Below, in pieces: positions 5,030 to 23,786 of a stretch of DNA of 50,742 nt. This DNA is from a virus: positions 1-50,742 of IMG/VR virus record IMGVR_UViG_3300014839_000010; one strand, written 5' to 3'. Each line of letters begins with the position of its first letter. Position 1 is the first letter of the stretch. Under the pieces are notes generated by a model. It made no database searches and was not told the DNA's origin. It saw nothing but the letters and a program-made list of their open reading frames with translations. The position numbers were made by a program, and so were the translations under genes.

Positions 5030-6249
5030 TAATTTTTATCCACAATCGAAATAGGATTATCTATTGTAGGTTCGACTATAACTCTGTCATATTCATTCGC
5101 GGTATAGTCTGATAATAGAGTTCTTTTAAGTCTGGAATCAGAAATGTCAGATCTCTTATATAGGATTATTCTATCTATTGGTTTGATTGGAGTTCCAATA
5201 CTCTGTATCTTGTCTGAAGAATTAAGAATTGTCTTTATTAATTGGTCTACAATCAATGACTGACCAATATCTAAACTATTAATTTGATTAGTCAAATTCC
5301 TGATAACATCAGTTTTTATTTGTTCTTTTTCTTTTGATTCTAATCTCTTTGTATAAGTTATAGATATAAAGAGTTGAACGCCGATATTAACTGGAGTTAT
5401 GGCTAAATGATCCAACCCATCCGATTCATATGAATCCAACACTGACTGTGCCAGGTCAAGCAGTTGACCAGAAACAGTAGGGGTGATAGATTTAATGATC
5501 CAATCTGCAGTACCTATCCCTCGTCTGTACAATATACGCTTAACATCCGATATGCCAGGTATCAGCCTTAACTTTGCTTCCAATGCAGTAAAATTAGCAG
5601 CTTCTTGAATCTGCTGCTGTTTACTTATAAAAAACCTATAGTTATCATCGGTCATTTCGTCCGAACCATAAGTTATACTTGTCTCATTCGCACACATCAA
5701 ACTATCATTTAGATAGTCGGAATAATTGGTGAAGTCGTGATATATGAGCGTGTTCTCGCCAGCATTAGCGTTCTCTCCATAGGAGTCACTTTGCGCGGCA
5801 AAATATACCTTATTCTGATTCCGAGGGAGTATAGTTGTTTCAGTAGTGAGATAGATTATCCTGTTACTTGTATCTGAAGTGGTGTTCATTATCTTTGTAC
5901 CAGCAGGAATGACAATGTCTCTACCATTATTTATCACACCGAAATTAGTTTCAAGTGTATGAAAATAGAAAATCTTATCTTCAGATTGAGTTGTAACCCG
6001 GGTTGCTTTTGGTCTTTCAACCCCGAATATCTCCCCAATATAATCCAAGAAAGCACCTGGTGCATTGCGCAAAAAGGGGATATTTATATTGTTTTCAAAT
6101 GTGTTTACTTGAGCCAAAAACTTATCATTAACAATATCAAAGATTAACTTAGCTTTGGAAGCAGCAGAAAAGTTAGTGATATTAGTGTTTTGTACGATCT
6201 TATCAATATCACTGTCGAGATAACTCTTATCGATAAAGGATATAGCCAT
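5029..6249 (-). CDS. Baseplate J-like wedge protein
   Basis: This is a 406-residue protein of the baseplate J family (P2 gpJ, Mu gp47, related to T4 gp6), which forms the inner wedge ring and triggers sheath contraction. Visible family features are the N-terminal helical part (FLRNAPGAFLDYIGEIFGVE), the strand region IPAGTKIMNTTSD followed by YLTTETTILP near residues 100-140, the segment LRLIPGISDVKRILYRRGIG, and the alpha/beta C-terminal region with VNIGVQLFISITY. It follows the gp25-like gene by four bases, the usual gp25-then-J order. The ATG at 6249 has AAGG about 7 bases upstream. Length and context are normal for the family. Confidence 0.85.
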   Translation of the reverse strand: MAISFIDKSYLDSDIDKIVQNTNITNFSAASKAKLIFDIVNDKFLAQVNTFENNINIPFLRNAPGAFLDYIGEIFGVERPKATRVTTQSEDKIFYFHTLETNFGVINNGRDIVIPAGTKIMNTTSDTSNRIIYLTTETTILPRNQNKVYFAAQSDSYGENANAGENTLIYHDFTNYSDYLNDSLMCANETSITYGSDEMTDDNYRFFISKQQQIQEAANFTALEAKLRLIPGISDVKRILYRRGIGTADWIIKSITPTVSGQLLDLAQSVLDSYESDGLDHLAITPVNIGVQLFISITYTKRLESKEKEQIKTDVIRNLTNQINSLDIGQSLIVDQLIKTILNSSDKIQSIGTPIKPIDRIILYKRSDISDSRLKRTLLSDYTANEYDRVIVEPTIDNPISIVDKN

Positions 6250-6253
6250 AATT

Positions 6254-6691
6254 TTACCTTACAAAAAACGGACCCTTCCCGTTTAGATCGTATACGAAGT
6301 TCATAATTATTTTACTATCTAAAACCTGATTCGTCAATAGTGTCGAGAACTTAACTTTGATCAGAACAGAACTTTCAGATACGGGTATAACCTCGACCAT
6401 GAAATCACTCGGACCCAAAAACTCATCAAATACCAAGGACTTAGTGATCGCTGCTGCAATTCTTTTTCCAGTGCTAGAGTTGTTAATCTCTCCCTCAAAA
6501 TCTTCTAGGTTAGCCCCCATATCTTGGACTAATGTCCAATCTGATTTAGAAGACATTATACGAGCAGTAACTTCTTGTTGGAAACTAAGTCCAGGATTGT
6601 TTTCCGTATCCTCTAGGGTTCCATTCTTTATCATGAAGTCACCAATCTTAGACCATTTTACGTCTACATTACCGATAGGATTGCTTAACAT
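6254..6691 (-). CDS. gp25-like baseplate wedge protein
   Basis: I chose the ATG at 6691 (protein start MLSNPIGNVDVKW, 145 residues) because GGGAG lies 6 bases upstream. A longer frame beginning with TTG at 6706 overlaps the upstream gene and has no better site. The size and pattern fit the GPW/gp25 family: an N-terminal strand region (DFMIKNGTLEDTENNPGLSF), then helices (QQEVTARIMSSKSDW, IAAAITKSLVFD), and a C-terminal strand pair (SSVLIKVKFSTLL, IIMNFVYDLNG). The T4 homologue joins the wedge to the sheath. It sits directly before baseplate J, as in most contractile systems. The name rests on pattern and context. Confidence 0.7.
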   Translation of the reverse strand: MLSNPIGNVDVKWSKIGDFMIKNGTLEDTENNPGLSFQQEVTARIMSSKSDWTLVQDMGANLEDFEGEINNSSTGKRIAAAITKSLVFDEFLGPSDFMVEVIPVSESSVLIKVKFSTLLTNQVLDSKIIMNFVYDLNGKGPFFVR

Positions 6692-6693
6692 AT

Positions 6694-7212
6694 TTAACTC
6701 CCACAAGCAGACAAAAGAGTACCCATAGTCGCCACTGACTTCATAAGGAATTGGACTGCTTTAACTCCAGGTATATTGAGAATACATACTGGCATAGGAC
6801 TTACAACAGTAGATGGAAATCCACTTAATAACAATGGGTTCAATGTTGTGATACCAGATAACCTAATCTGATTCGGCATGGCCACTATACTTAATGGACC
6901 CTTGATAATATTATTGCCATCATCTTTATAACTAAAAAATCCATTATCTCTATTCCCGGCAAGTCTGGCATAACCAGAAGTGACCTCGACCAATGACCCA
7001 TTCGCATCATCGCCAACCTTTAGAATCCTTTTATCTTCTACGTTATAATTCTTACTTTGTGAAACTTCAGTTGCCACAGATCTAGATTGTTCAACTGGAT
7101 CTCCATTATCCGCACGGACGATATCAACTAGATGTTTTTCTGGATCATAATCGACGATCTGGATTAAGGTACCTGAATATTTAGATCTAGGATTTGTTTG
7201 TTTTTCTGTCAA
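6694..7212 (-). CDS. Small baseplate-associated protein, TTG start
   Basis: This is a 172-residue protein that starts with TTG at 7212. AGGAGG lies exactly 6 bases upstream (7219-7224), no ATG is available for more than 100 codons, and the TTG overlaps the TGA of the upstream gene. The N-terminal half is charged and strand-like (GTLIQIVDYDPEKHLVDIVR). A Gly/Asp segment follows (RILKVGDDANGSLVEVTSGY), then a hydrophobic C-terminal half with many Pro and Leu (LNPLLLSGFPSTVVSPMPVC), ending in a Gly/Ser/Cys tail. The position between the hub and the gp25-like gene suggests a spike, hub cap or OB-fold adaptor. The family is not recognised. Confidence 0.5.
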   Translation of the reverse strand: MTEKQTNPRSKYSGTLIQIVDYDPEKHLVDIVRADNGDPVEQSRSVATEVSQSKNYNVEDKRILKVGDDANGSLVEVTSGYARLAGNRDNGFFSYKDDGNNIIKGPLSIVAMPNQIRLSGITTLNPLLLSGFPSTVVSPMPVCILNIPGVKAVQFLMKSVATMGTLLSACGS

Positions 7213-7433: not shown

Positions 7434-10400
7434 TATCCACCTATATTTAGTCTATTGCCGAGTATTTTATTTACAACTATCCCAGTGGCAGAAGCAATCC
7501 TGTTCCCCGCATTACCCAATGATTGCTTAAGTTTTTCCCAATCTGTATTATCTACTGCACCATATAGTCCTAAGGTCCAATTTTCTCCATTTCGCTTAAC
7601 AGGAAGCACAGATATTGGTTGTCTATATTTACTCCATTTAAACCAAGTATCCACTATATCGTCTGCAAATAAAGATACGAGGATAAGAGGTCCCTTACTC
7701 ATCAGGGTTTTTGCTAAGGGAAATGCCAATTTACTAGCACTAGAAGCTGCCACCTCACTAACTGGAACTGCTAATTTTTCAGCAGCTAATGTTAATTTAG
7801 CCATTCTCGATACTTCTGCACCTTCAAGAAACGCATTGTACCTAGCTGCTTCCATAGCATTTCCATAACTTGCATAACCTGATTTAGCTGCCGCTTTAAC
7901 CGCATCACTTCCTGATTTAGCTACATCCGCAACTGCAGTGGCAACTCTATTGGCGGCACTGACTCTAAGTGGATTTTTAATTAAATCAATAGCACCTTCA
8001 GTAACTTGCTTTCCAGCTCCATAACCGGGAACTGCATCTGGAGTAAAACGGTTCTCTATAGCCAATTCCATATTTTTAGTAAATAATGCAGTAGCATAAG
8101 CCCATAAGGCTTTTATCTGTGCCATACCTGAAAGATTATTATTGAAAACCAATAAGTTAGGAGTAATCTCAGTAATAAATCCAGTATCGTATGAGAAGGT
8201 TTGTACCACCTGTTCCACTTCTACAGCACCAAAAATTTGGTTATAAGTGTCAAAGATAAAGACTATATCATGCGGCTTAATACCTGGTCTACCCAGTATT
8301 ACTATCTCACCTTGATAAATCTTCTTCATCGACTTAACTAATAAAGAAAGAGCATATCTATCTCTTAACTTTATCTCACCCCAATCAATTGCATTATGGA
8401 ATACAAACGTACCCGTCTTGACATGTCTTGGTTCGATATCGTCATCAGCTTTCATTAGAGTAGATTCTTCATAATTTTCAAAACCAACTGATCCATCAAA
8501 GTTCGCATCAGAAGAATCCTTAGGAGCTATAACTTTTACAGCATTATTGGCCTCTCCATTACACCTCATGTTATTGGAAATAATATCATGTTCTGAAGTT
8601 ATAATATGATAATTTCTAAAAGGCTTCATATACTTCAGTAGATAGTCTAACGACTTTTCTAACTTTGGCTCATTACTCATTACTTCTTCATATTGTCTAT
8701 AGGGTTTGATAATAGTTTTTCGAAGAGCCTGCTCACTTAATAGTGCTGGGTTTGATCCTAGAGTATTCTTAACTCGATCATAATACACCCGATTACTTAA
8801 GACAGACCCAAGGAGTGTGGTATTAGTATTGTTCATGTTCTCGGATAAATTAGGTCCTCGATAGAGATATAGTTGCTCTGGATATCCGGCGAATAAAGTC
8901 ATTCGAGTATCATATGGAACAGCGGAGACTATTGTGTCGGGATGCCGGAGAGATAGTTCTTGTAGTGTATCCCAGGCAGTTTGTTTGTAAACAGTAAACG
9001 GAAAGTTGAATATTGAATGGTATATAGCCTTTGAGATTTTCCAGATTCCAACACCTACACCAATAACAAGACCAGCCGGAGGAAAGAAACTAGAAATCGC
9101 AAAACCAAGACTAACTGCAGTCATTGCTCCCCTGAATGCATCCCATCCACCAGAATACCCTATTGACGGAAAGAAAAGATTTTCAGCAAGACCTATACCA
9201 TTCAAACCGTTAAACCATGTTGATGGACCACAATCGGCAAAAGTAGAATGTCTTCCCTTGTCTCCAAAACTCTCTACTTCATTGCAGTCATTCTTTAACA
9301 ATCGAGCAGCTAAATCATTTGATTCAGAGTTGACAGAATAACTCCATTTGCCTTCCATTGTCGAACCTTTCTCATCAGCTATAAGTTCAACAGCAAGACT
9401 CTGACTTGTGATCTCTAGTACATCTGACCCACTTACTTCTGTCACCTTACCATTGAATTCCACGGTAAGATTATCGGGATCAGAATCATAGCCCAGACGT
9501 AACTGCACTCTAGTTCCCTGACTAAGCATCAATTGTTTTATCTTTTCATCTTTTTTGGGCATCAAGTTTTTATTAGAAACATAACCGCTACCCGTGACAG
9601 TGTGCGCATCATTAACTGTCCAGTTATCGTCTTTTTGTATGGTTGGAAAATCTGTATTAACAAGATCATTTTCTAAATTCGTCACATGGAGAATTAGTAG
9701 ATCAGGAGCAACATCCTTATTCTTTATTAATCTTATCTCTTTAACCTTATTCACATTATAAAAATCAGCAAAGTTCCTCCAGACATTCTCACCAGAATTC
9801 TTATTATCATATACAGATTCATCTAGGAAGTATAACTTAAAAGTGGGCATAGCCCTTCGCATGGTGTAAGATGTACTCTCTATATTCTTTATTGCTGCGG
9901 CCAAGGTAATCGTTTGTCCTTGAACCGAGAAATCATGGATAACTGAAGATTCTTTCTGATCTATCTTGTTACCATTACCCACAGCAAGAAGAGGAGGAGC
10001 TAGTTGGACAACCTTTTCGCTACCAGCTAATTTATTTGATGTTTTAGGAGAAGCCATTGCGTCAACCGTCATCTTATATACTTTACCAAATTCTTCAATA
10101 ACTGGAGCATATGCTGCCTGTCTTATATAATTAGAATATTGATCAGAATAATTCTGCCAATAAAAATCTGGATTCTTGCCACAAAGAGACCTAGGATCTT
10201 CTTTGTCTTTATTTGGTAACTTCATATCTGGATAGCACGGAGAGGCAGTAGTTGTATTGATGGTCGCCAATCTTTTAAGATACCACTGATAGGATGGTAA
10301 TGGATCAGAATTAAGTATATTGGTCAAGTTATTAGATATGGAAATAAGTTTCTTTTCTCTAGCATCCTTAAGGGTCAGCCATTCAGACCGTAGTTCTTTT

Positions 10401-14900: not shown

Positions 14901-16557
14901 ATAATTCACCACGATTCATCATATTAAATAAATCTTGTTTAGTAAAACCAATTTGAGTGGCAGCAATATCACTCGTCATCTGATTTAATACCGTATCAAA
15001 CTCTTCACTTAGACCACTTCTCTTTACATGGTGAACATTAAGTTTATTTGAGGCGACAATGGACCCTTCTTGAATCAACATCTCTTCAGCTGCAAGATTG
15101 GCCCTATATCCTTCTAATTCCTTTTTCCTTTTATATAGTTTAGATATATGTTTTTTATGTATACCACCCATTCTTTCTAGTTCTAATCTTCTATCATCTA
15201 CCCCTAAAAGTTTTTCTTCATAATATGTAGTATCTTTGCCCTGACTTTTAAGGTCCTTTATCTTGCGGACAAAGTTACTTTGACCAGGAGGGTTAATCCC
15301 AAAATATGAGTTAGTTACGGGATTGACTTTAGCATAGTTGAGTGAAGCGTCTACCCCTTCTAAGATTTTTTCTTGTGCAGTTATTTGAGATTCAACTGAA
15401 CCTATCTCTTGGCGCAAGGCAGCTTGAAATTCTGCAAATTTGTCTGCATTAACTGAAGCAGCCTCAAATTCTCTTAACGACTTGGTTCCTAATGCTGAAC
15501 TGATTGTGGGTTTTTTACCACCTCTAATAAACTCAGTTGGACGTATACCTTTCTTGGACGTGAAATTAAACCCACCACCAATAAATTGTTCAACTAGAGA
15601 ACCTGGCAAGAATGCTTGTCCTTCCTCTGTCATCTCTCCAGTTCCAGGAGTTAATCCCTTATCCTTGATAGCTTGCAAGAGACGAGATTGTACAACATCT
15701 TTACGTACATCCCCCATAGGAGAGATATGAATTGTACTTTTCTTGAGGGCAGCAATATTTTCATTACGCCCAAAACCGCTCTCTTGTAGGGTTGCTATTT
15801 CTTTGTCACTTACTCCAGGAGTTCCCTCAAATATTAACTTCTGTTTCATTGTCTGATAAATATCTTTAGGGTTAGAAGTAGAGTTAAACTCACGAGGATT
15901 CTGGCCATATGGCATCAAAGATTTACTTAAGGTCTTTTCGTATTCCCCTAAAGTAGCTATATCGCTTTTAACAATCTCACCAGAATCAGATAGAACCCAA
16001 CTTGACGCATAAGTTCTTGGTGAGGGTTTAGCAATCAACACATCTCCACTTTGATTTACGGGAAGTACCGAGAATGTAGTTGTTTTAATACCTGATCTTG
16101 GAATCATATTAAATTCAGACAATCTACCATCAGCCGTATATACAGACCTAATATCTATATGCGTTCCATATCCATAATCCCCGGATATCTTGTCTATAAG
16201 TGATTGGGCCTTTGTTCGAAGATCGGGACTGAGTTCTCCCATCATCGACGAGAACTTACCCTTATCCGCCAGATTAGCATCAACAACTTTATAGGTTGGT
16301 TCTAACGAATCCACAAATTGTGCAACAGAAACGGGCTTGAAATCTACCTTATTCTTAATGAACTGAGAGGTAGGTGTTTTATATACATTAGTAAATTTAC
16401 TAATATAATTAGAGGGTTGAATGAAATTGGCCAAGGGTTTGCCCATCTCACGATGGGTTTTATAAAGACCATAACCAGTACCCGCAGCAAGTGCAAGCTT
16501 ACCCGCGAAAGAGAATATATCAGTTGAATCATTCTTGGTTTCTAAGGACGAGATCAT
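11938..16557 (-). CDS. Giant virion protein of unknown function (1539 aa), tail-associated
   Basis: This is a 1539-residue protein. Its ATG overlaps the TGA of the 2410-residue gene (ATGA) and its end overlaps the hub gene, so the three giants are probably translated as a coupled set. Near the N-terminus (residues 15-35) lies a Gly/Ala hydrophobic helix (FAGKLALAAGTGYGLYKTHR), and near the C-terminus another (GKYGLLPAAGIGLAATLL). Likely coiled coils occur near residues 355-405 (FQAALRQEIGSVESQITAQE) and 450-492 (KLYKRKKELEGYRANLAAEE). The middle is mixed helical with many charged residues. I see no nuclease, lysozyme or polymerase motif. Length, hydrophobic ends and position between the tape-measure slot and the hub suggest a second tape-measure-like, tail-lumen or ejected protein. 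This is inference. Confidence 0.5.
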   Translation of the reverse strand: MISSLETKNDSTDIFSFAGKLALAAGTGYGLYKTHREMGKPLANFIQPSNYISKFTNVYKTPTSQFIKNKVDFKPVSVAQFVDSLEPTYKVVDANLADKGKFSSMMGELSPDLRTKAQSLIDKISGDYGYGTHIDIRSVYTADGRLSEFNMIPRSGIKTTTFSVLPVNQSGDVLIAKPSPRTYASSWVLSDSGEIVKSDIATLGEYEKTLSKSLMPYGQNPREFNSTSNPKDIYQTMKQKLIFEGTPGVSDKEIATLQESGFGRNENIAALKKSTIHISPMGDVRKDVVQSRLLQAIKDKGLTPGTGEMTEEGQAFLPGSLVEQFIGGGFNFTSKKGIRPTEFIRGGKKPTISSALGTKSLREFEAASVNADKFAEFQAALRQEIGSVESQITAQEKILEGVDASLNYAKVNPVTNSYFGINPPGQSNFVRKIKDLKSQGKDTTYYEEKLLGVDDRRLELERMGGIHKKHISKLYKRKKELEGYRANLAAEEMLIQEGSIVASNKLNVHHVKRSGLSEEFDTVLNQMTSDIAATQIGFTKQDLFNMMNRGELSEELGRLAAGGKKYYVTGLNLGRSAQSAEEEYENVNRDVNSYLRDIRLLPGKREKELAVSLTSEWDAGEGQKFFSGFKGTAHTTPFSVANLLRNYDYYLNNHKIASSIKDLDKKKWGHVDVLLGEHPTAKFLSEGVIGQKEFSNALTIWSTKLARKNTPEAEEVLRALGLQKDGKRWSVPEGVRTEKQIEGLFNWARSKGIEGEDIHRNITALIGDEILPPAGEEIAVNPILLSLEQHGSQSGFNKMGSVSERVLSAITATYPEEVAADIRSRMTYSGPSPASQSEEMQKYLSLMTDKTKEAIPLSRLQNAKINRNGVLISPTQGELLDALFDQNLERRKALISELGGKDNLVIALGDSAAETEHHKLIDRLVISSSEELEPHIGRGISIGGETVAGDLDVQTRRILELALNRNKNTPALQFAATELDENIKTISKTFVKSSFKGRVSGSVFAQAQSELPGMAEWGKEALRKRAGDLYGGQEVFVAAMHNPDIAKGYASQISESMLDQGRIKAINEKYGSGSETAEKMIRRMKGRKAVELAETIGIPIAVTREPAEGVVRVVPGLLTSAEKFGAKTRGHNPGTAYVTSLQSHKPYLTSLGLDFDRDPLTVIGMVNQDKALTAAMAGGEGFAAEAGRAYRDTLSSIFTYYNPKTKGTQDAFKMYYEGGALKVNEMSYAMGKTEKGMIGLLSTALEPVHMGLRTGLSKSPTFDEWRKFYRTDTLGLLIAENALKSKVLPEHALLGDTLPKLLETINPNSNMSTESRIAGTRGFLDMITFKEGESGLGNEIRAARGQFSEDLLNRIVSSSKVKKEDVHGFANVYNELTSDETMSHFFDAQRVGHGLSQEQLKLALAKGESILAPHATAMATQGKNLFGRALKNVGKYGLLPAAGIGLAATLLTSPKEVPVSLATKEHESSSRVREQVRFPRTKYSIPGKQRVQIKGRVSDVPDPSSLSSYFNTPNVNMNIKDFRQHMTQDYIDRKVNRGH

Positions 16558-19500
16558 CTAATGTGTCCACCCTGTCTTAAGTGTTGGTCGATTTCTTTTG
16601 ACCTATCCTGATCTAGGTCTATATCTACAGAAGCACTATATCTAGAACCAATTGAAATGTCTACATTTTGAACGCCCATAGAGGCTACATGATCGTATGT
16701 ACTTTGTAGATCATTTCTCTCTGGTATTTTAACATATTTGACAGCTTCTTCCAAGTATGGTTTTCGACCCAATGCTCTAACCCTATTCTCCCATAGGTTA
16801 TAGTCATGATAGTCTAATCCCTCATTAATCAAATACTTAAGTTGTACATCCTTCATGTCCACATCAGACCGCCAACCTATCCAATCATCTGGCGGTAAAG
16901 TATCTTGGGACATGAATTGATCAACATCAGACTGGCGCCTAGCTCGCATCTGGATTCTTCTATTGGTTAATTCTTTACGCATTGACTCAAGTTCTTCAGG
17001 AGATCCTTCAACCTCACCATTCTTCATCCGATTATACAATTGCTTATCCCACTGAGCCTGATAGAAATCTTGCATATTCTCTGGGACAAGACTTTGTATC
17101 TTCTCTTTCTGCGTATCTGGAGCATCCAGGAAAGCTTGGAAGAATGATCTTTCACTCTTGGGCATAGACATCATAATCTCATATGGATATGAGTAGGGGT
17201 CAGTTCCGGCAAGTGTATTGTGCTTCATTTTAATCGCCGCAGACATACCCCAAGAATCACCCCTCGATTTGGCTTCTCTCTCAAGATGTTCTGCCTTGGC
17301 ATACTTCAACTTATCAAAATAGTCTTCTATCTCTCTCTTCTGTTGTATCTTCTCTGGAATCCCATTCCAGCCCAATCTATGTTCTAGTGTTTCTGCGGCT
17401 GGCTCTATGAAGTGCTCAATGGGTTTTTCCCATAACTTAAAGTCTCTGCCATAAATCTGCTCTTGGTATTGGGTCATTGCATCAGATGCAGGTAGAAATT
17501 TGTGAGCAGGAGACAAAGGGAGTAACTGTTCTAGTGGGTTAGCTTTAGCCAGATCAGTTAATGCCGCCGCATATGAAGCTATAATTCCTGCATTCTCTGG
17601 GTCTCTAAACTCTCTTAATCTTCTCTTTTCTTTTAGTTCTTGTTCTGTCTGAGTATAGATCTCTCGTTCTCTATCATTTAGGTTCCCGCTCTTATTCAGT
17701 TCTTGCATTTCGGCTTGAGACTGCCTAAACTCATGCGAGTACATAGCCACATCTGCAAGGATTTTATATTTATGAGCTAATGGGTAATTCTCTGGTTCCA
17801 TACCTTTAAGTTCCGGATATCTAGCCTCATATCCCTTACCCGGCAAACGATATTCCCCTTCATCAACCTTCGTATAGGGGTCGCCCTGATGGTAGTTCAA
17901 GTAGTAATCTTCGCCTGGCATCCACGAAGGCATATTGTTCGGTAGTGGATTTACGTATTCTACATCTGCTGTCCTTCTAGGAATGATACGACGAATTGCT
18001 TCTGTTAACCCAAATCCACCGCCAAGATTAAGACCCCAGAAGTCTCTTTGAGTGCTAGTTATGTCTGATCCAGGTTCTAAGATGGGGGTATCGGAGTAAA
18101 GTTCTTTCCCACCAGTGACATTTTTTGCAACTGCTGAAGCAATGAACCCTCTCAAACCAGCAGCTTCATATCCCGTATACCACTGCTGTTGCAATTGCTG
18201 CCTATAGTCATATGGACTAATCGCACCACGTTGTGGTAACCCACCTAATTCATATGACGGAGCAAATTCTTTATTCTCAGGTAATCCACCCGGTTCTTGG
18301 AATTCAGGATTATAAACCCTAGGAGGCTTAAGCAATCTACCTAAGGTCATTTCATAAAGAGGACCAAAGATACCCATAGCTTCTCCAGAAGGTCCAGTAA
18401 CCGGATATGGTCTATCTTTTCTTAGTCTATCTTCTACTTCATATGGGTTCAGAAACTCTCTAGCCCATCTCTTAAGTGGAAATTCGTCAGCATTATCTTC
18501 ATAGATTGATTTCTCTTTATATCCAGACATCAATCGTGCGTACCAATTAGGTCTAAAATAAGAAATCTGGCTATTATGCATTAAGAATCCTGGTCCAACA
18601 AAACTATTAGAGCCAGGTACTTCAAAGTCATATACTATACCATTATATTCTTCTATTTTTATACTATTTATTTTTATTGCAAATCCACTTTCAAGTTCTG
18701 TATATCCACAAGTAGTTTTTGATAAATTTAAACTGTTTATGGGGACTTCTTTAATCGGAATGATCTTGTTTAACTTTTCTGATGCAGCAGAAGGTATTAA
18801 AATTTCTTGGGTAGAATACCCATCTTTTGTAATGGACTTTTTCCCAAGAAAAGAATATATTTTAATTTTTGTTAGTAAAAGTTGGAATTGTTTCATCATA
18901 GGAGTAGGATGCATTCCTATCCTTATTGAATTTCTCTTAATAGACCCATCACCAGCAATAAATCCGTCAACAAGACCATAAATAAAATAGTTGTTAGCAA
19001 ACATTATCTCTTTACTAAATATCTTATCCCCATTAGTGGCAGTTCCTGGGATTAGTTTTCTTATGAGTTCTGTTAGGATTGATGAATTAATAGTAATTTC
19101 AATTCCATTTTCACTGGTACTTCTTATATCTGATTCCAATTTGAAAGTATTGTAGATATATTCTTTAATAAAATTTATGTAGTTGTTTTCGTTTTTATGA
19201 AAAGCAAACTTAATAGAATTATCGATTATGCATCCTTCAGCTGCATAAAAACCACAAAATTTGCCGAAATCATAGGTCAAATCTATAGTATCTATATTCG
19301 GGAAGTCAAGTTTTTTCCTTCTGGGTTGTCCACCCTTTTTGCTTAATTTAGTCAGATCAAGAGACCTATACCTTATCTGCATCTCGGTTAAATTATTCTC
19401 TTTCATTATCGATAATAATTTCACTCTACGATCTATAGATCTGCACCTCAATCCTTTCCACAGGACTATTTCTTTGTCAATAGTTGTATTATATTTGCAT

Positions 19501-22500
19501 TGTCTTTCTTTGGAATACCAACCATCAGACATTTTTTCCTGGTTTATTATCTCTCCTATATTAATAGATTGTAAATTTTCTAATGGTGAATAATAAGGAA
19601 TGAATAGTCTAGTCGTTGATAGATTTTTTATTTTGTCGATTCTTTCCCAAAAAATAGAAACATTAGACCTAGAGGGACGAAAACAATGAGGGCATGTGAC
19701 TACTAGAACATTATGATTGCCGGTTAATCCAACTTCTGCATCTCTATTAAAAGTTGTTGATACATAATATACTGGTTCATTTGTCTCTCTTGTGATCGTT
19801 TTTGCTATCGTATACTTCTTTCCGTCAATACCAATAATTTCATCCCCAGTTCTTATATCTTTAGCTTTTTTTCTATCCCCAATGAAAGTCAAAATACTAG
19901 ATTCAGGAGTAAGGCACCCCTTATATGGTGTTATACCCGCTTCCCACCATCTACCCTTATAGACAGGAACTTCTTTCTTGCCGGAATATTCCGCTTCTAG
20001 TTCAGCCGGTGTGTCCTCCGTCCCAATACCAGCCGCGAGTAATGGTAAACCAAGTGCTCCACCGATGAGCATACCCCATCTTCCCCATCTCCCCATGCGA
20101 TTATATTTACCACCGAACCACGGAAGTTTAGCAATAGTCTTCGGCATTTCAAGCATTTCTGCTTTCGCAACAGCCTTGTGCAGTTCACTTAATCTATCCT
20201 TGCCGAATAATTCTTTACCTAATGTGTAGGCTTCTGCGGCCATATAGCCTGTCAAAAATCCAGATCCAGCTAATCCAATAAATGGCGCAATACCTGTCGA
20301 TCCGGGATATTGCTCTTCTATTCCTTTCCTTAGACTCGTAAGACCAGTCATTTGGGAGACATGAGCAGCAGTTATGTGTGCTGTCTTCGCTGTCCAAGCT
20401 AGAGCGCCAGTTAGCCCCGCATCACCAGGTGCAGTGCCAGAAGGAAAAACTGTTTTGACCGCCCAATTAGCCAAACTGTACGCAGCGGGTAATCCGATCA
20501 TTAACGGTAGTGCTTGCTTGGCATGGCGAGCCATAAGCTGGATTATGTTTCCCTGCAATCCAACTTCGCCGCCAACACCAAATTTAGGCAATAACTTACC
20601 AACTGTTGACAGGACTCCCCTACCTGATCCTGTTGCCTTAAGGACATCTTCTGCTATTTTAAAAGGATCATCCATTAACCTAAGGTATTTAGAGAAGGTC
20701 TCATGGGCGAAAGCATGAGCCATTTTCCCATACAGCCCCGCTTCCGATTCTGCCCCAACAATCAAGAATGGATATTTCTCCGGAGATATAGTCCTAAGTC
20801 GATCCTTGCCAAGAAATGAACTTATATTTTCTGTTCTGATAAGTGATTCAGTGAACTGAGTAGCCCGAGTTGAAATTGCTGGATCATGTATACGACTAAA
20901 CAATCTGGCATGTTCGAATAAGGGTATTGTCTCATTCGAATATCTCTTAACACCATAAACCTTACCACCCTCGTACCTAACTGTTTCAATTCCCTCCGTT
21001 ATGAGGTCTCTACCCGTAATCTTGTTGAGATAATTTTTATAAAGTTCAGAACCCTGATCTGCAATATTGACACTGAAAGATCCTTCCCTAAGTACCGATC
21101 CAGACATCATTGTACTTAGACTTAATGTTCTTGGTATACCCCCTAGTGTGTATTCTAGCCGACGCACTGCATTGTAGGCTAAGTCTTTATACCTAGCTTG
21201 TGTTCTGCCAATACCAATAACTGATCCATGATAAGATAGATCTGATAGATTTATCTTCTTACCAAATATATTAACCGGTCGATTCCATAGAAAAGCTGAT
21301 ACACCTAGGGTAAGTCCTATACCGCCGACTAAAGACCAGTCAATATCCGTACTTGATTGATAATCAGGATACTTATACCCAGATCCGAAATCCGTATATG
21401 AAGAACGTCTATTACCATTCCATGTGTGGGGTAGACCCTCTATTGTGTTGTATTCGTCATCCTTACCAGAGAATCTATTAGTCTGGTATATTGCAAAGGC
21501 AACATCGTCAGCCATTCTTGCAATACCCTGCCATCCAGAACCAAAGCCAGTCCTACCCAATCTTTGTTTGCCAAACCAACCATGCTTGAGACCCTCTATG
21601 GTATTATAGTCATCATCCTTTCCGGATATCGCATTACTAAAACCAGTATAGAGAACCGCAGCAGCTGCAAGGGCGATACCACCCATGGCAACTTTAGGTC
21701 CAAATTTACGGAATAGACTTTCTTCTTGAACGGTCCCCCTTAATGCGGACTCCATTGTTTTGAATTCTGGAGCCATATGCCGACGTGCTCTTGAGAGGAT
21801 CTTCTCATTAGACAATGTATATTTGGCCGTGGAGTTTGCAAAGAAGTCATTCTCTAGATACTCATTGAATTGGTCTAAAGTAGTAAGATCCTTACCCCCT
21901 TGATAGGTATATCCATGTTTAGATAATTCTTCTACACCAGTCTGTATTCTCTTACGTAAAGCTAGAACTTTTAATGTAGTTTGATGTTTCCCAATAGCAG
22001 ATACGAGATCTTGTTCTTGTTTGCCCAATACTACTTGGGTTGGATTCTTTAACTTTTCGATTAATGCGGCGAGCCTAGGTGCAACCTGTTGAGCAAGCCA
22101 AGCATCACCAGTAGATGAATGTATCTCTTTTGTTGTAAGTAGGTATTTGGATATGAAGTCTAAATTAGAACCTGTGAAGATGTCGTATGTTTTAGGTATG
22201 TACCCACGATCTTGCATCAGGGCATAAGCATACTTCGTCATCTCCTGAGTATCGATTACGTGTCTGCCCTTCAGCGCCTTTATCTTGTTCTGCTCTAATA
22301 CTCCTTTAAAATAATTATACTTTTCATGTCCACGACGAAGTTGCTCTTGGAATATCGCCTCAGGCAGATTACCACGTCTAAACTTTAACTTCTCTACATT
22401 CTGCCGACTTAGGGCACTAGGTGTAAGACCAACCCCTGCTCTATATCTTATATTCTTTATGTGTGCTTTTTCTCTAGCAATAATCCCCTTATATTCTGGA

Positions 22501-23786
22501 GACATAAGAGAGTATTCTGGAGATCTATCATTTATAAAACCAAATTCATTAAGAAATCTATTCTCGAATATTGCATTATGTATGGTGATTACTTGTTCGT
22601 TTAATAAACTTTGTTTGAATATTCTTTTAGCTTTTTCTTCTTCAGCTGTGACCCTAGTTAAAGAAACTAGGTTAGTCATCAATTGTTTTTTCTTGGCAAC
22701 TTCTAGGGCAGTCTTATCTATATACCCCGCAACTGGTTTGGTGAAGTTTGCACCACTCGAAACAAGGTCAGCAATTATCTTCTTGGCCACAGGCCCAGCA
22801 GCAGCTAATTCAGCTTCTGTCCTAATCAAGTTTAACTCAAGCGCCCTACTTCCGCTAACAATACCTATTTGTACAATCTTGTCACCCCGATGTGGATGAA
22901 GTCCTCTGGTCTCAATATCAAGTGCAGTTATGCCCGTAAACAGATTAGCAGCCTGACTAGCACGCCGATGCATCTCACCAATACGCAGGGGCGATCCGAA
23001 AGGGGTTACTTCCTTTCTCTTCTCACTGGACCATCCCTCGGGAAGACCAGAGATTCTATTTAATAAGTCAATACCATTGATTGGAGAATTAGAGTTAAGT
23101 TTGTGTGTACTCAGATTGTGAATGGCAGAGATGTATTCTTCAGATAACTTATTGAGATTGCTAATATTGGCTTTCAGTTTATCTATGGCCCCAGCCGCTT
23201 CTTCTTCCTTGGCCTCCAAAGACGAAGTCATTGCCAACTGGCTTTCGTCTAGCTTACCTTCCTTTAACTCTTGTCTTATCTTCTCTCTGACCTTATTAAG
23301 TTTAGCTATGTCGAAGTTAAAAAGATCTTCACTCTTCTTTACTTCATATATATATTGTTTAGAAGGGTCTTCTCTGGAGACGAATTGCAGGAATCCGACT
23401 TCCTGATCCATCATATTGAGATAAAAGTTTAACTGAGAAACGTATTTTTGAGGTGGGCCATTTTGTAGATATTCAGCGAATTTAGATTCAGATACTGTCT
23501 TAATATCACCAACATAACCTTCTTTGGTTATTAAGTCGATGTGGCCAGTAATCTGATTCTTCTCATCCAATACGAAATGCTCAGCATCGGTTATTCTCTT
23601 TTCTTTATAACCTAATGCCTGTATGATTTCGTGTAAACGGGTGCCTAATCCAGCCGCTGAACCAAGTGATTGATCTTCATCGCTATCATCGGATGTAGGA
23701 GTAGTTAAGTATTTGTATATCTCTTTCTCGGACAGACCTATCTGAGAAGCTCGATATAGCTGGTATAGTGGGACATTAGAAGCCAT
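16554..23786 (-). CDS. Giant tape-measure-position protein: PD-(D/E)XK nuclease + DEDDh exonuclease + intein
   Basis: This is a 2410-residue precursor, 1962 residues after intein removal. Residues 40-135 form a RecB/Cas4-type PD-(D/E)XK nuclease: H52 (TRLHEIIQ), D84 (GHIDLIT), D94-x-K96 (GDIKT), Q118-xxx-Y122. Residues 282-565 form a DEDDh 3'-5' exonuclease: D290-x-E292 (ALDIETRGL), HNAIFENRFL at 403-412 with Glu408 where Asp is usual, D512 (VIDTQ), and H556-x4-D561 (HSSTGDAW). Hydrophobic segments lie near 700-716, 815-835, 1092-1112, 1165-1185 and 1236-1254. Two tandem SGKDD-YNTIEGL repeats lie at 721-803. The intein occupies 1291-1738. The C-extein is Pro/Tyr-rich with charged helices. The gene follows the two tail chaperones, where contractile phages encode the tape measure. 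The nuclease motifs are seen directly. The tape-measure role and ejection into the host are inferred. Confidence 0.75.
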   Translation of the reverse strand: MASNVPLYQLYRASQIGLSEKEIYKYLTTPTSDDSDEDQSLGSAAGLGTRLHEIIQALGYKEKRITDAEHFVLDEKNQITGHIDLITKEGYVGDIKTVSESKFAEYLQNGPPQKYVSQLNFYLNMMDQEVGFLQFVSREDPSKQYIYEVKKSEDLFNFDIAKLNKVREKIRQELKEGKLDESQLAMTSSLEAKEEEAAGAIDKLKANISNLNKLSEEYISAIHNLSTHKLNSNSPINGIDLLNRISGLPEGWSSEKRKEVTPFGSPLRIGEMHRRASQAANLFTGITALDIETRGLHPHRGDKIVQIGIVSGSRALELNLIRTEAELAAAGPVAKKIIADLVSSGANFTKPVAGYIDKTALEVAKKKQLMTNLVSLTRVTAEEEKAKRIFKQSLLNEQVITIHNAIFENRFLNEFGFINDRSPEYSLMSPEYKGIIAREKAHIKNIRYRAGVGLTPSALSRQNVEKLKFRRGNLPEAIFQEQLRRGHEKYNYFKGVLEQNKIKALKGRHVIDTQEMTKYAYALMQDRGYIPKTYDIFTGSNLDFISKYLLTTKEIHSSTGDAWLAQQVAPRLAALIEKLKNPTQVVLGKQEQDLVSAIGKHQTTLKVLALRKRIQTGVEELSKHGYTYQGGKDLTTLDQFNEYLENDFFANSTAKYTLSNEKILSRARRHMAPEFKTMESALRGTVQEESLFRKFGPKVAMGGIALAAAAVLYTGFSNAISGKDDDYNTIEGLKHGWFGKQRLGRTGFGSGWQGIARMADDVAFAIYQTNRFSGKDDEYNTIEGLPHTWNGNRRSSYTDFGSGYKYPDYQSSTDIDWSLVGGIGLTLGVSAFLWNRPVNIFGKKINLSDLSYHGSVIGIGRTQARYKDLAYNAVRRLEYTLGGIPRTLSLSTMMSGSVLREGSFSVNIADQGSELYKNYLNKITGRDLITEGIETVRYEGGKVYGVKRYSNETIPLFEHARLFSRIHDPAISTRATQFTESLIRTENISSFLGKDRLRTISPEKYPFLIVGAESEAGLYGKMAHAFAHETFSKYLRLMDDPFKIAEDVLKATGSGRGVLSTVGKLLPKFGVGGEVGLQGNIIQLMARHAKQALPLMIGLPAAYSLANWAVKTVFPSGTAPGDAGLTGALAWTAKTAHITAAHVSQMTGLTSLRKGIEEQYPGSTGIAPFIGLAGSGFLTGYMAAEAYTLGKELFGKDRLSELHKAVAKAEMLEMPKTIAKLPWFGGKYNRMGRWGRWGMLIGGALGLPLLAAGIGTEDTPAELEAEYSGKKEVPVYKGRWWEAGITPYKGCLTPESSILTFIGDRKKAKDIRTGDEIIGIDGKKYTIAKTITRETNEPVYYVSTTFNRDAEVGLTGNHNVLVVTCPHCFRPSRSNVSIFWERIDKIKNLSTTRLFIPYYSPLENLQSINIGEIINQEKMSDGWYSKERQCKYNTTIDKEIVLWKGLRCRSIDRRVKLLSIMKENNLTEMQIRYRSLDLTKLSKKGGQPRRKKLDFPNIDTIDLTYDFGKFCGFYAAEGCIIDNSIKFAFHKNENNYINFIKEYIYNTFKLESDIRSTSENGIEITINSSILTELIRKLIPGTATNGDKIFSKEIMFANNYFIYGLVDGFIAGDGSIKRNSIRIGMHPTPMMKQFQLLLTKIKIYSFLGKKSITKDGYSTQEILIPSAASEKLNKIIPIKEVPINSLNLSKTTCGYTELESGFAIKINSIKIEEYNGIVYDFEVPGSNSFVGPGFLMHNSQISYFRPNWYARLMSGYKEKSIYEDNADEFPLKRWAREFLNPYEVEDRLRKDRPYPVTGPSGEAMGIFGPLYEMTLGRLLKPPRVYNPEFQEPGGLPENKEFAPSYELGGLPQRGAISPYDYRQQLQQQWYTGYEAAGLRGFIASAVAKNVTGGKELYSDTPILEPGSDITSTQRDFWGLNLGGGFGLTEAIRRIIPRRTADVEYVNPLPNNMPSWMPGEDYYLNYHQGDPYTKVDEGEYRLPGKGYEARYPELKGMEPENYPLAHKYKILADVAMYSHEFRQSQAEMQELNKSGNLNDREREIYTQTEQELKEKRRLREFRDPENAGIIASYAAALTDLAKANPLEQLLPLSPAHKFLPASDAMTQYQEQIYGRDFKLWEKPIEHFIEPAAETLEHRLGWNGIPEKIQQKREIEDYFDKLKYAKAEHLEREAKSRGDSWGMSAAIKMKHNTLAGTDPYSYPYEIMMSMPKSERSFFQAFLDAPDTQKEKIQSLVPENMQDFYQAQWDKQLYNRMKNGEVEGSPEELESMRKELTNRRIQMRARRQSDVDQFMSQDTLPPDDWIGWRSDVDMKDVQLKYLINEGLDYHDYNLWENRVRALGRKPYLEEAVKYVKIPERNDLQSTYDHVASMGVQNVDISIGSRYSASVDIDLDQDRSKEIDQHLRQGGHIR
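18573..19916 (-). mobile_element. Intein with LAGLIDADG homing endonuclease (448 aa)
   Basis: In-frame protein-splicing element at residues 1291-1738 of the giant tail protein. Block A starts at Cys1 (CLTPESSILTF, then IRTGDEIIG). Block B has the T-x-x-H motif (GLTGNHNVLVV). Two LAGLIDADG-like helices flank the endonuclease core (FGKFCGFYAAEGCI and FIYGLVDGFIAGDGSI). Block F is NGIVYDFEVPGSNSFVGPGF and block G ends in His-Asn before Ser+1 (LMHN/S). All residues needed for splicing are present, so it is probably active. The element looks more AT-rich and more Ile/Lys/Asn-rich than the flanking extein, which fits horizontal acquisition. The extein junction is PYKG/SQISYF. Homing would copy the element into intein-free alleles of this gene. 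Confidence 0.92.
21378..21626 (-). repeat. Two-copy SGKDD-YNTIEGL protein repeat
   Basis: Residues 721-751 and 773-803 of the giant tail protein share the pattern SGKDDxYNTIEGLxHxWxG, then R-x3-TxFGSG in copy 1 and a closely similar ending in copy 2. The copies occupy 21534-21626 and 21378-21470. They lie between two hydrophobic segments. Their function is unknown; a ligand-binding or assembly motif is possible. Confidence 0.85.

Follow-up and report, generated by a model that had tools for sequence, protein, structure and literature searches.

The virus record IMGVR_UViG_3300014839_000010 of IMG/VR is a metagenome fragment of 50,742 bases, which we analysed over its whole length and refer to as the window. 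Its minus strand, on which all window features described here are located, contains a reading frame of 2410 codons (23786..16554) that encloses a segment of 448 amino acids (19916..18573). This segment is very probably a canonical class 1-type intein with an apparently intact LAGLIDADG homing endonuclease, inserted in a tail-module protein of the orf145 family of phage 0305phi8-36. We base this reading on the splicing residues, on profile and fold matches, on a seamless empty site in homologues, on a related intein at the same site in a second contig (L128), on the grouping of related inteins into same-site clades, and on the low guanine-plus-cytosine (GC) content of the segment; chance resemblance to an intein is excluded. 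The conserved motifs of the host gene are recurrent homing targets, with six sites that each have an intein lineage of their own.

Identification and anatomy of the intein

The intein extends from Cys1 (codon at 19916-19914) to His447-Asn448 (Asn448 codon at 18575-18573), and is directly followed by Ser+1, the first residue of the C-extein (18572-18570). It separates an N-extein of 1290 amino acids (19917..23786) from a C-extein of 672 amino acids plus the stop codon (16554..18572). An earlier note, made from the letters of the window, had placed an intein at 18573-19916, with Cys1, a TGNH motif, His-Asn, Ser+1 and two LAGLIDADG helices; both of its end coordinates were exact to the base, and all of these elements were found, including the acidic residue of each LAGLIDADG motif.

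The N-terminal half of the Hint splicing domain (residues 1-75; 19692..19916), delimited by model and alignment, contains block A with Cys1 and block B with T65-G-N-H68, and the C-terminal half (18573..18704), recognized by Pfam, model and alignment, contains block F (VYDFEV, with D430) and block G (FLMHN). The LAGLIDADG endonuclease domain (residues 210-395; 18732..19289) carries motif 1 (DFGKFCGFYAAEGCI; 19227..19271), with the acidic residue E227, and motif 2 (IYGLVDGFIAGDGSI; 18939..18983), with D323. Residues 79-205 (19302..19682) form a linker segment, partly modelled at low confidence and conserved in the L128 intein, for which a role in DNA recognition is probable by analogy with PI-SceI.

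The segment matched the Pfam families Intein_splicing (E = 1.5e-7) and LAGLIDADG_3 (E = 8.8e-7, exceeding the cut-off), and the TIGR01443 intein_Cterm model exceeded its cut-off on the complete 2410-residue protein. When a profile of the window intein and eight relatives was compared with inteins of solved structure, the best match was PI-PkoII (E = 5.7e-22). An AlphaFold2 model of the intein (mean pLDDT, the predicted local distance difference test, of 71.6) aligned over residues 1-448 with the TliVMA intein (Z = 30.4), PI-PkoII (Z = 28.0) and PI-SceI (Z ~24), and its endonuclease part alone aligned with I-DmoI (Z = 16.5). Overall, matches to solved Hint domains and full inteins ranged from Z 16 to 30. 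GC content was 31.0% in the intein, lower than in any 1344-bp stretch sampled from the record, and 43.6% and 41.6% in its flanks. Thus, of the checks that the earlier note had proposed, the intein search was positive with TIGR01443, with the intein profile and, slightly below the cut-off for Intein_splicing, with Pfam, and the comparison with flanking DNA found the intein distinctly richer in AT.

The empty site

To describe the insertion point, we used a host profile built from 16 intein-free relatives. The 448 residues are inserted between profile positions 524 and 525, after Gly1290 and before Ser, with zero host residues lost. The nearest homologue, L002, which is 46-47% identical to the window protein across the whole C-extein, reads RWWEFGTTPWEG-SKTDYYRPNWY at this point, where the window reads RWWEAGITPYKG-intein-SQISYFRPNWY. 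The site is likewise empty in Acinetobacter phage ME3, Moorella phage MTATph1 and Bacillus phage KLEB27-3, as in most of the 113 non-redundant homologues. The alignment proposed in the earlier note therefore yielded an exact empty site, and the finding that it named as fatal to an intein, homologues that all keep the segment as a normal domain, was not made, since most homologues are without the segment.

In a close intein-free relative of the window protein (L158:7926-8023), we observed a frame break and an apparent loss of about 16 codons closely downstream of the site, which reflects either faulty assembly or an imprecise repair that left a scar.

Inteins at six sites in the homologues

Three scans with host alignments gave over 150 loci, from which a host tree of 113 rows was built after removal of near-duplicates (>97% identity). 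The host proteins were screened for large seamless insertions and each insertion was then read individually. Altogether, 11 proteins were found to hold 15 inteins, distributed over six sites: site A, which lies upstream of that of the window by five residues (L030, L044, L076, L116, L201 and, as a mini-intein of 151 amino acids, L124); site B, that of the window (window and L128); site C (L076); site D (L044 and L039); site E (L039, L076 and L165); and site F (L123). L076 had the most inteins, with three in one protein, and L044 and L039 had two each. Two other large insertions were rejected: that of L060 is a subtilase, and that of L019 is devoid of intein motifs. In addition, inserts of 180-245 amino acids near host profile positions 783-794, observed in 0305phi8-36-like members, gave no intein splicing match.

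All 15 inteins start with Cys1 as the position-1 nucleophile and are followed by Ser+1. Cys1, the Thr and His of block B (T65 and H68 in the window), the Asp of block F (D430) and the terminal His-Asn were kept in all 14 aligned inteins, and both endonuclease acids were kept in 12 of the 13 aligned full-length inteins. In the remaining one, the site E intein of L076, the first catalytic acid was lost (E to G), and the L124 mini-intein had lost the whole endonuclease. Empty, full, catalytic acid-deficient and mini-intein alleles, which are stages of the homing cycle, are thus found side by side in the family.

The L128 intein occupies exactly site B and is 40% identical to the window intein over 448 residues. 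It was found in a contig from a different metagenome, in which the host protein shares only 34% identity with that of the window and is located on a distant branch of the host tree. Searches of viral contigs returned no relative with the window intein alone, and only the record of L128 when the window and L128 inteins were used together; inteins at site B are therefore rare in the viral contigs searched. In phage records, a tblastn search with the intein as query yielded only weak matches, in the endonuclease region, to ribonucleotide reductase inteins of Tenacibaculum phages. A search of genome contigs gave a single distant locus, in a contig of a Bacteroidales metagenome-assembled genome, and thus pointed to no bacterial host for the window phage.

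Intein history and host history

Inteins of the same site were 37-70% identical, versus mostly 20-29% for inteins of different sites (BLAST). In a maximum-likelihood tree, the inteins of each of the four sites with several members formed a clade (support of 100/99 for A, 100/99 for B, 100/100 for D and 100/100 for E). Their hosts were scattered in the host tree, such that each occurrence at sites A, B, D and E required a separate change (5, 2, 2 and 3 changes, respectively); L201, which was found later, was left out of this tree. Same-site clades on scattered hosts are the signature of homing. Repeated loss from a common ancestor could be the source of some of the host scatter. The inteins were more alike than the conserved host regions in 11 of the 15 same-site pairs compared. 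At site A, the relationships among inteins contradicted those among hosts: hosts of L030 and L076 were 70% identical and their inteins 47%, whereas hosts of L044 and L076 were 56% identical and their inteins 66%. This contradiction argues for transfer. A sister relationship of site B and site A inteins is possible (support of 90/92), in which case a lineage may have shifted between these neighbouring sites.

Inteins settle in motifs that are intolerant of change, which offer a stable DNA target and in which imprecise loss is lethal. The conservation of the insertion sites fits this general rule. For the five separate sites B to F, the mean relative entropy of the host profile within eight columns of the sites was 1.13, versus 0.59 overall (p = 0.001, resampling), and the difference was retained when only the better conserved C-terminal region was taken as background (p = 0.009). 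The insertion in the window falls in a conserved host motif, and site B ranked in the top 14% of host positions for conservation, in agreement with the earlier note, which had suggested a highly conserved site; site F was only in the top 24%.

Proposed mechanism and alternative explanations

From these data, we infer that the intein splices autocatalytically, cuts empty alleles and, through repair, spreads in mixed infections. After translation, the Hint domain would excise itself by an N-S acyl shift at Cys1, transfer to Ser+1 and cyclisation of Asn448, with a predicted protein of 1962 amino acids as the splicing product. During co-infection, the endonuclease would cut intein-free copies of the gene, and repair of the cut copy would place the intein at the same position.

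Some observations weigh against this interpretation. The Intein_splicing match (31.8 bits) is slightly below the curated cut-off of 35.8 bits, intein residues 127-205 were of low confidence in the AlphaFold2 model, and site B is known from two members, so that homing at this site rests on one pair.

An artefact of assembly, in which a foreign intein was misjoined to the host gene, would account for the GC content of 31% against 42-44% and might be expected in a metagenome fragment, but it is hardly credible: the reading frame is unbroken at both junctions, a related intein is present at the identical residue in an independent contig from another metagenome, and the inteins of further sites in further contigs are equally seamless, several of these sites recurring in independent contigs. 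It is also very unlikely that the segment is a dead or splicing-defective relic, or a self-cleaving Hint domain of the bacterial intein-like or hedgehog-like type that leaves the protein in two pieces. Such domains are indeed neighbours in fold (Z ~17.5), but endonuclease-containing inteins matched far more strongly over their whole length (Z 24-30). Moreover, every catalytic residue and Ser+1 are intact, the insertion is seamless with respect to the homologues, and the same residues are kept in the 14 aligned inteins despite an identity of about 20-29% between sites.

A domesticated intein, in which splicing conditional on temperature, redox state, metal or an assembly partner sets the activity or assembly of the tail protein, is improbable, although less so than these two. 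Conditional splicing is reported for other inteins (PMC5790916, PMC7360933), the site lies in a conserved motif of a virion protein whose function would require splicing, and a mini-intein without endonuclease survives at site A. Nevertheless, the intein is absent from most relatives, nearly all copies retain intact endonuclease motifs, and the scatter of same-site inteins is the pattern of a mobile element and not of a conserved regulator. A specific form of co-option, in which splicing delays or gates the activity of a tail protein that bears a nuclease and is packaged, up to the late stage of assembly or to injection, is a distant prospect; if true, parasitic inteins, up to three per chain, would hold an injected nuclease inactive inside the producing cell. 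The mobile, self-splicing intein with a homing endonuclease thus remains the preferred reading.

The host protein

Read along the minus strand, the window encodes, in this order, a terminase, portal, major head protein, sheath, small tail proteins, the intein host, an open reading frame (ORF) of 1539 amino acids, and a protein with an endolysin match and weak baseplate-hub matches. The order sheath, chaperonin, host, ORF and hub is common to the window and phage ME3, and the host gene has the tail chaperonins on one side and the assigned tape measure gene on the other. By tblastn, the host was linked through its homologous C-terminal region to ME3_35, whose annotation names YP_001429636, a virion structural protein of 0305phi8-36, as a homologue; the hub is YP_001429638. 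In 0305phi8-36, the tape measure has been assigned to orf146 and the hub to orf147, and orfs 143-144 have been called the only non-structure genes nearby (PMC2147016). By homology and gene position, the intein host is assigned to the orf145 family of 0305phi8-36, a virion protein that adjoins the assigned tape measure (orf146) and is not the tape measure itself; we infer the number orf145 from the accession order. One further homologue, L056, falls within this family in the host tree.

The conserved region of the host matched no Pfam family and no PDB sequence, and gave no convincing fold match in the PDB. Its best viral fold match was a 'large polyvalent protein associated domain' (LPPA) protein (E = 3e-30); no LPPA Pfam domain was matched in the window protein. 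Near the host N-terminus, a PD-(D/E)XK (RecB/Cas4-like) nuclease-like region (23265..23576) was detected by weak matches to phrog_1674 and phrog_1990, and is 34.6% identical to a RecB-family exonuclease of Thermus phage phiFa. A possible DnaQ/RNase_T-like exonuclease motif I region (22839..22925) was suggested by an RNase_T match below the cut-off (E = 0.0016) and a weak match to phrog_192. Enzyme-like domains differ from member to member of the family: L002 has a staphylococcal nuclease domain (7700-8300; E = 5.5e-16) in place of the nuclease regions of the window protein, and L060 has a subtilase domain (E = 2.6e-64). In view of the nuclease-like domains at its N-terminus, the host may be a polyvalent protein destined for injection instead of having a structural role alone. 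The label 'giant tail protein' given by the earlier note thus holds for a tail-module protein, but calls for caution as regards a purely structural role.

Host residues 720-811 (about 21354-21629) contain two copies of a repeat, GKDD(D/E)YNTIEGLxHxWxGxxR...FGSG, with similar copies in L002.

Comparison with known systems

The window element itself is an ordinary class 1-type LAGLIDADG intein; its host protein and the clustering of six sites are unusual. Like the TliVMA and PhoVMA inteins (7qss, 7qsu, 7qst), with which it aligns at Z 25-30 over 308-343 residues, it combines a Hint splicing domain with a two-motif LAGLIDADG endonuclease inserted in it; unlike the window element, these inteins are hosted by the catalytic subunit of archaeal V-ATPase, and sequence identity is 14-17%. 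PI-PkoII (2cw7) and PI-SceI (1vde, 1lws) have the same architecture, but other hosts (V-ATPase for PI-SceI) and a different recognition segment.

Inteins of mycobacteriophage terminases, portals and nucleases resemble the present set in occupying neighbouring sites in the conserved motifs of one gene and in their sporadic spread (PMC5050341). The terminases have seven intein sites, two of them one residue apart, and active endonucleases have been shown for some of these inteins (PMC5050341). Their hosts, however, are packaging and DNA enzymes and the portal, all described as nucleic-acid binding in that survey, in which no tail-module host is listed (PMC5050341). More generally, hosts of phage inteins include terminase, portal, RecB-like nuclease, methylase, thymidylate synthase, DNA polymerase, ribonucleotide reductase, PhoH and nicotinamide phosphoribosyl transferase (PMC5050341, PMC3556154, PMC3322345, PMC6892783, PMC5526547, PMC7886860). 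Homing elements are also found in tail genes (Twort tmpA, PMC5526547; the minor tail gene of mycobacteriophage BAKA, PMC11855218), but these are RNA introns and not inteins. The view of the earlier note that a tail protein is an unusual intein host was thus borne out, with the qualification that homing elements are known in virion genes, as portal inteins (PMC5050341) and tail-gene introns. We came across no account of an intein inside a virion protein of the tail module in the literature searched, which did not include a survey of inteins in actinobacteriophages (bioRxiv) that PMC11855218 cites; priority is therefore not proven. The host resembles the polyvalent proteins that are predicted to be packaged and injected by some phages (PMC5512222) in its giant size, its place among virion genes and its variable enzyme-like domains; it differs from them in having no LPPA Pfam match, and the word intein is absent from the text of PMC5512222.

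Known phage inteins concentrate in nucleic-acid enzymes, and these data indicate that large 0305phi8-36-like phages have a conserved late virion gene that can match a polymerase or terminase as a homing target. The intein sites flag motifs of an uncharacterised protein family that are seemingly intolerant of change, and which are thus targets for experiments. At defined sites, alleles that are empty, full, degenerate or reduced to a mini-intein form a natural series for studies of the phage homing cycle, and the set also offers new splicing domains and endonucleases.

Other homing elements in the host gene and in related records

In some homologues, the host gene was split. In L070 (5546-6743), it stops after GEAYEALHELHPDE and restarts at YGAFDKFKILADVAP, with an ORF of 300 amino acids of the LAGLIDADG type (5809-6711) between the two halves. 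With relaxed settings, the group I intron model matched there (RF00028; 39.7 bits, E = 2.9e-8), below the Rfam gathering score of 50. L082 has a broken host gene with the same ORF coordinates as L070. In phage KLEB27-3 (L005:10966-12067), the host gene is annotated as gp031 and gp033, around an ORF of 211 amino acids, with a marginal group I intron match (E = 0.028) in the relaxed Rfam search; this split is probably an unrecognised intron or an inserted endonuclease gene. At gathering thresholds, Rfam identified no intron. In L031 (8414-8525), the ORF of the host gene stops and resumes about 110 bases further on in another frame, with no endonuclease ORF there, which is probably a sequencing frameshift.

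Finally, inteins were also observed in other genes of relatives: in ribonucleotide reductase and RecA in L106 and L092 (the record of L076), in the terminase in L088 and L103, and in DNA polymerase III alpha in L104.

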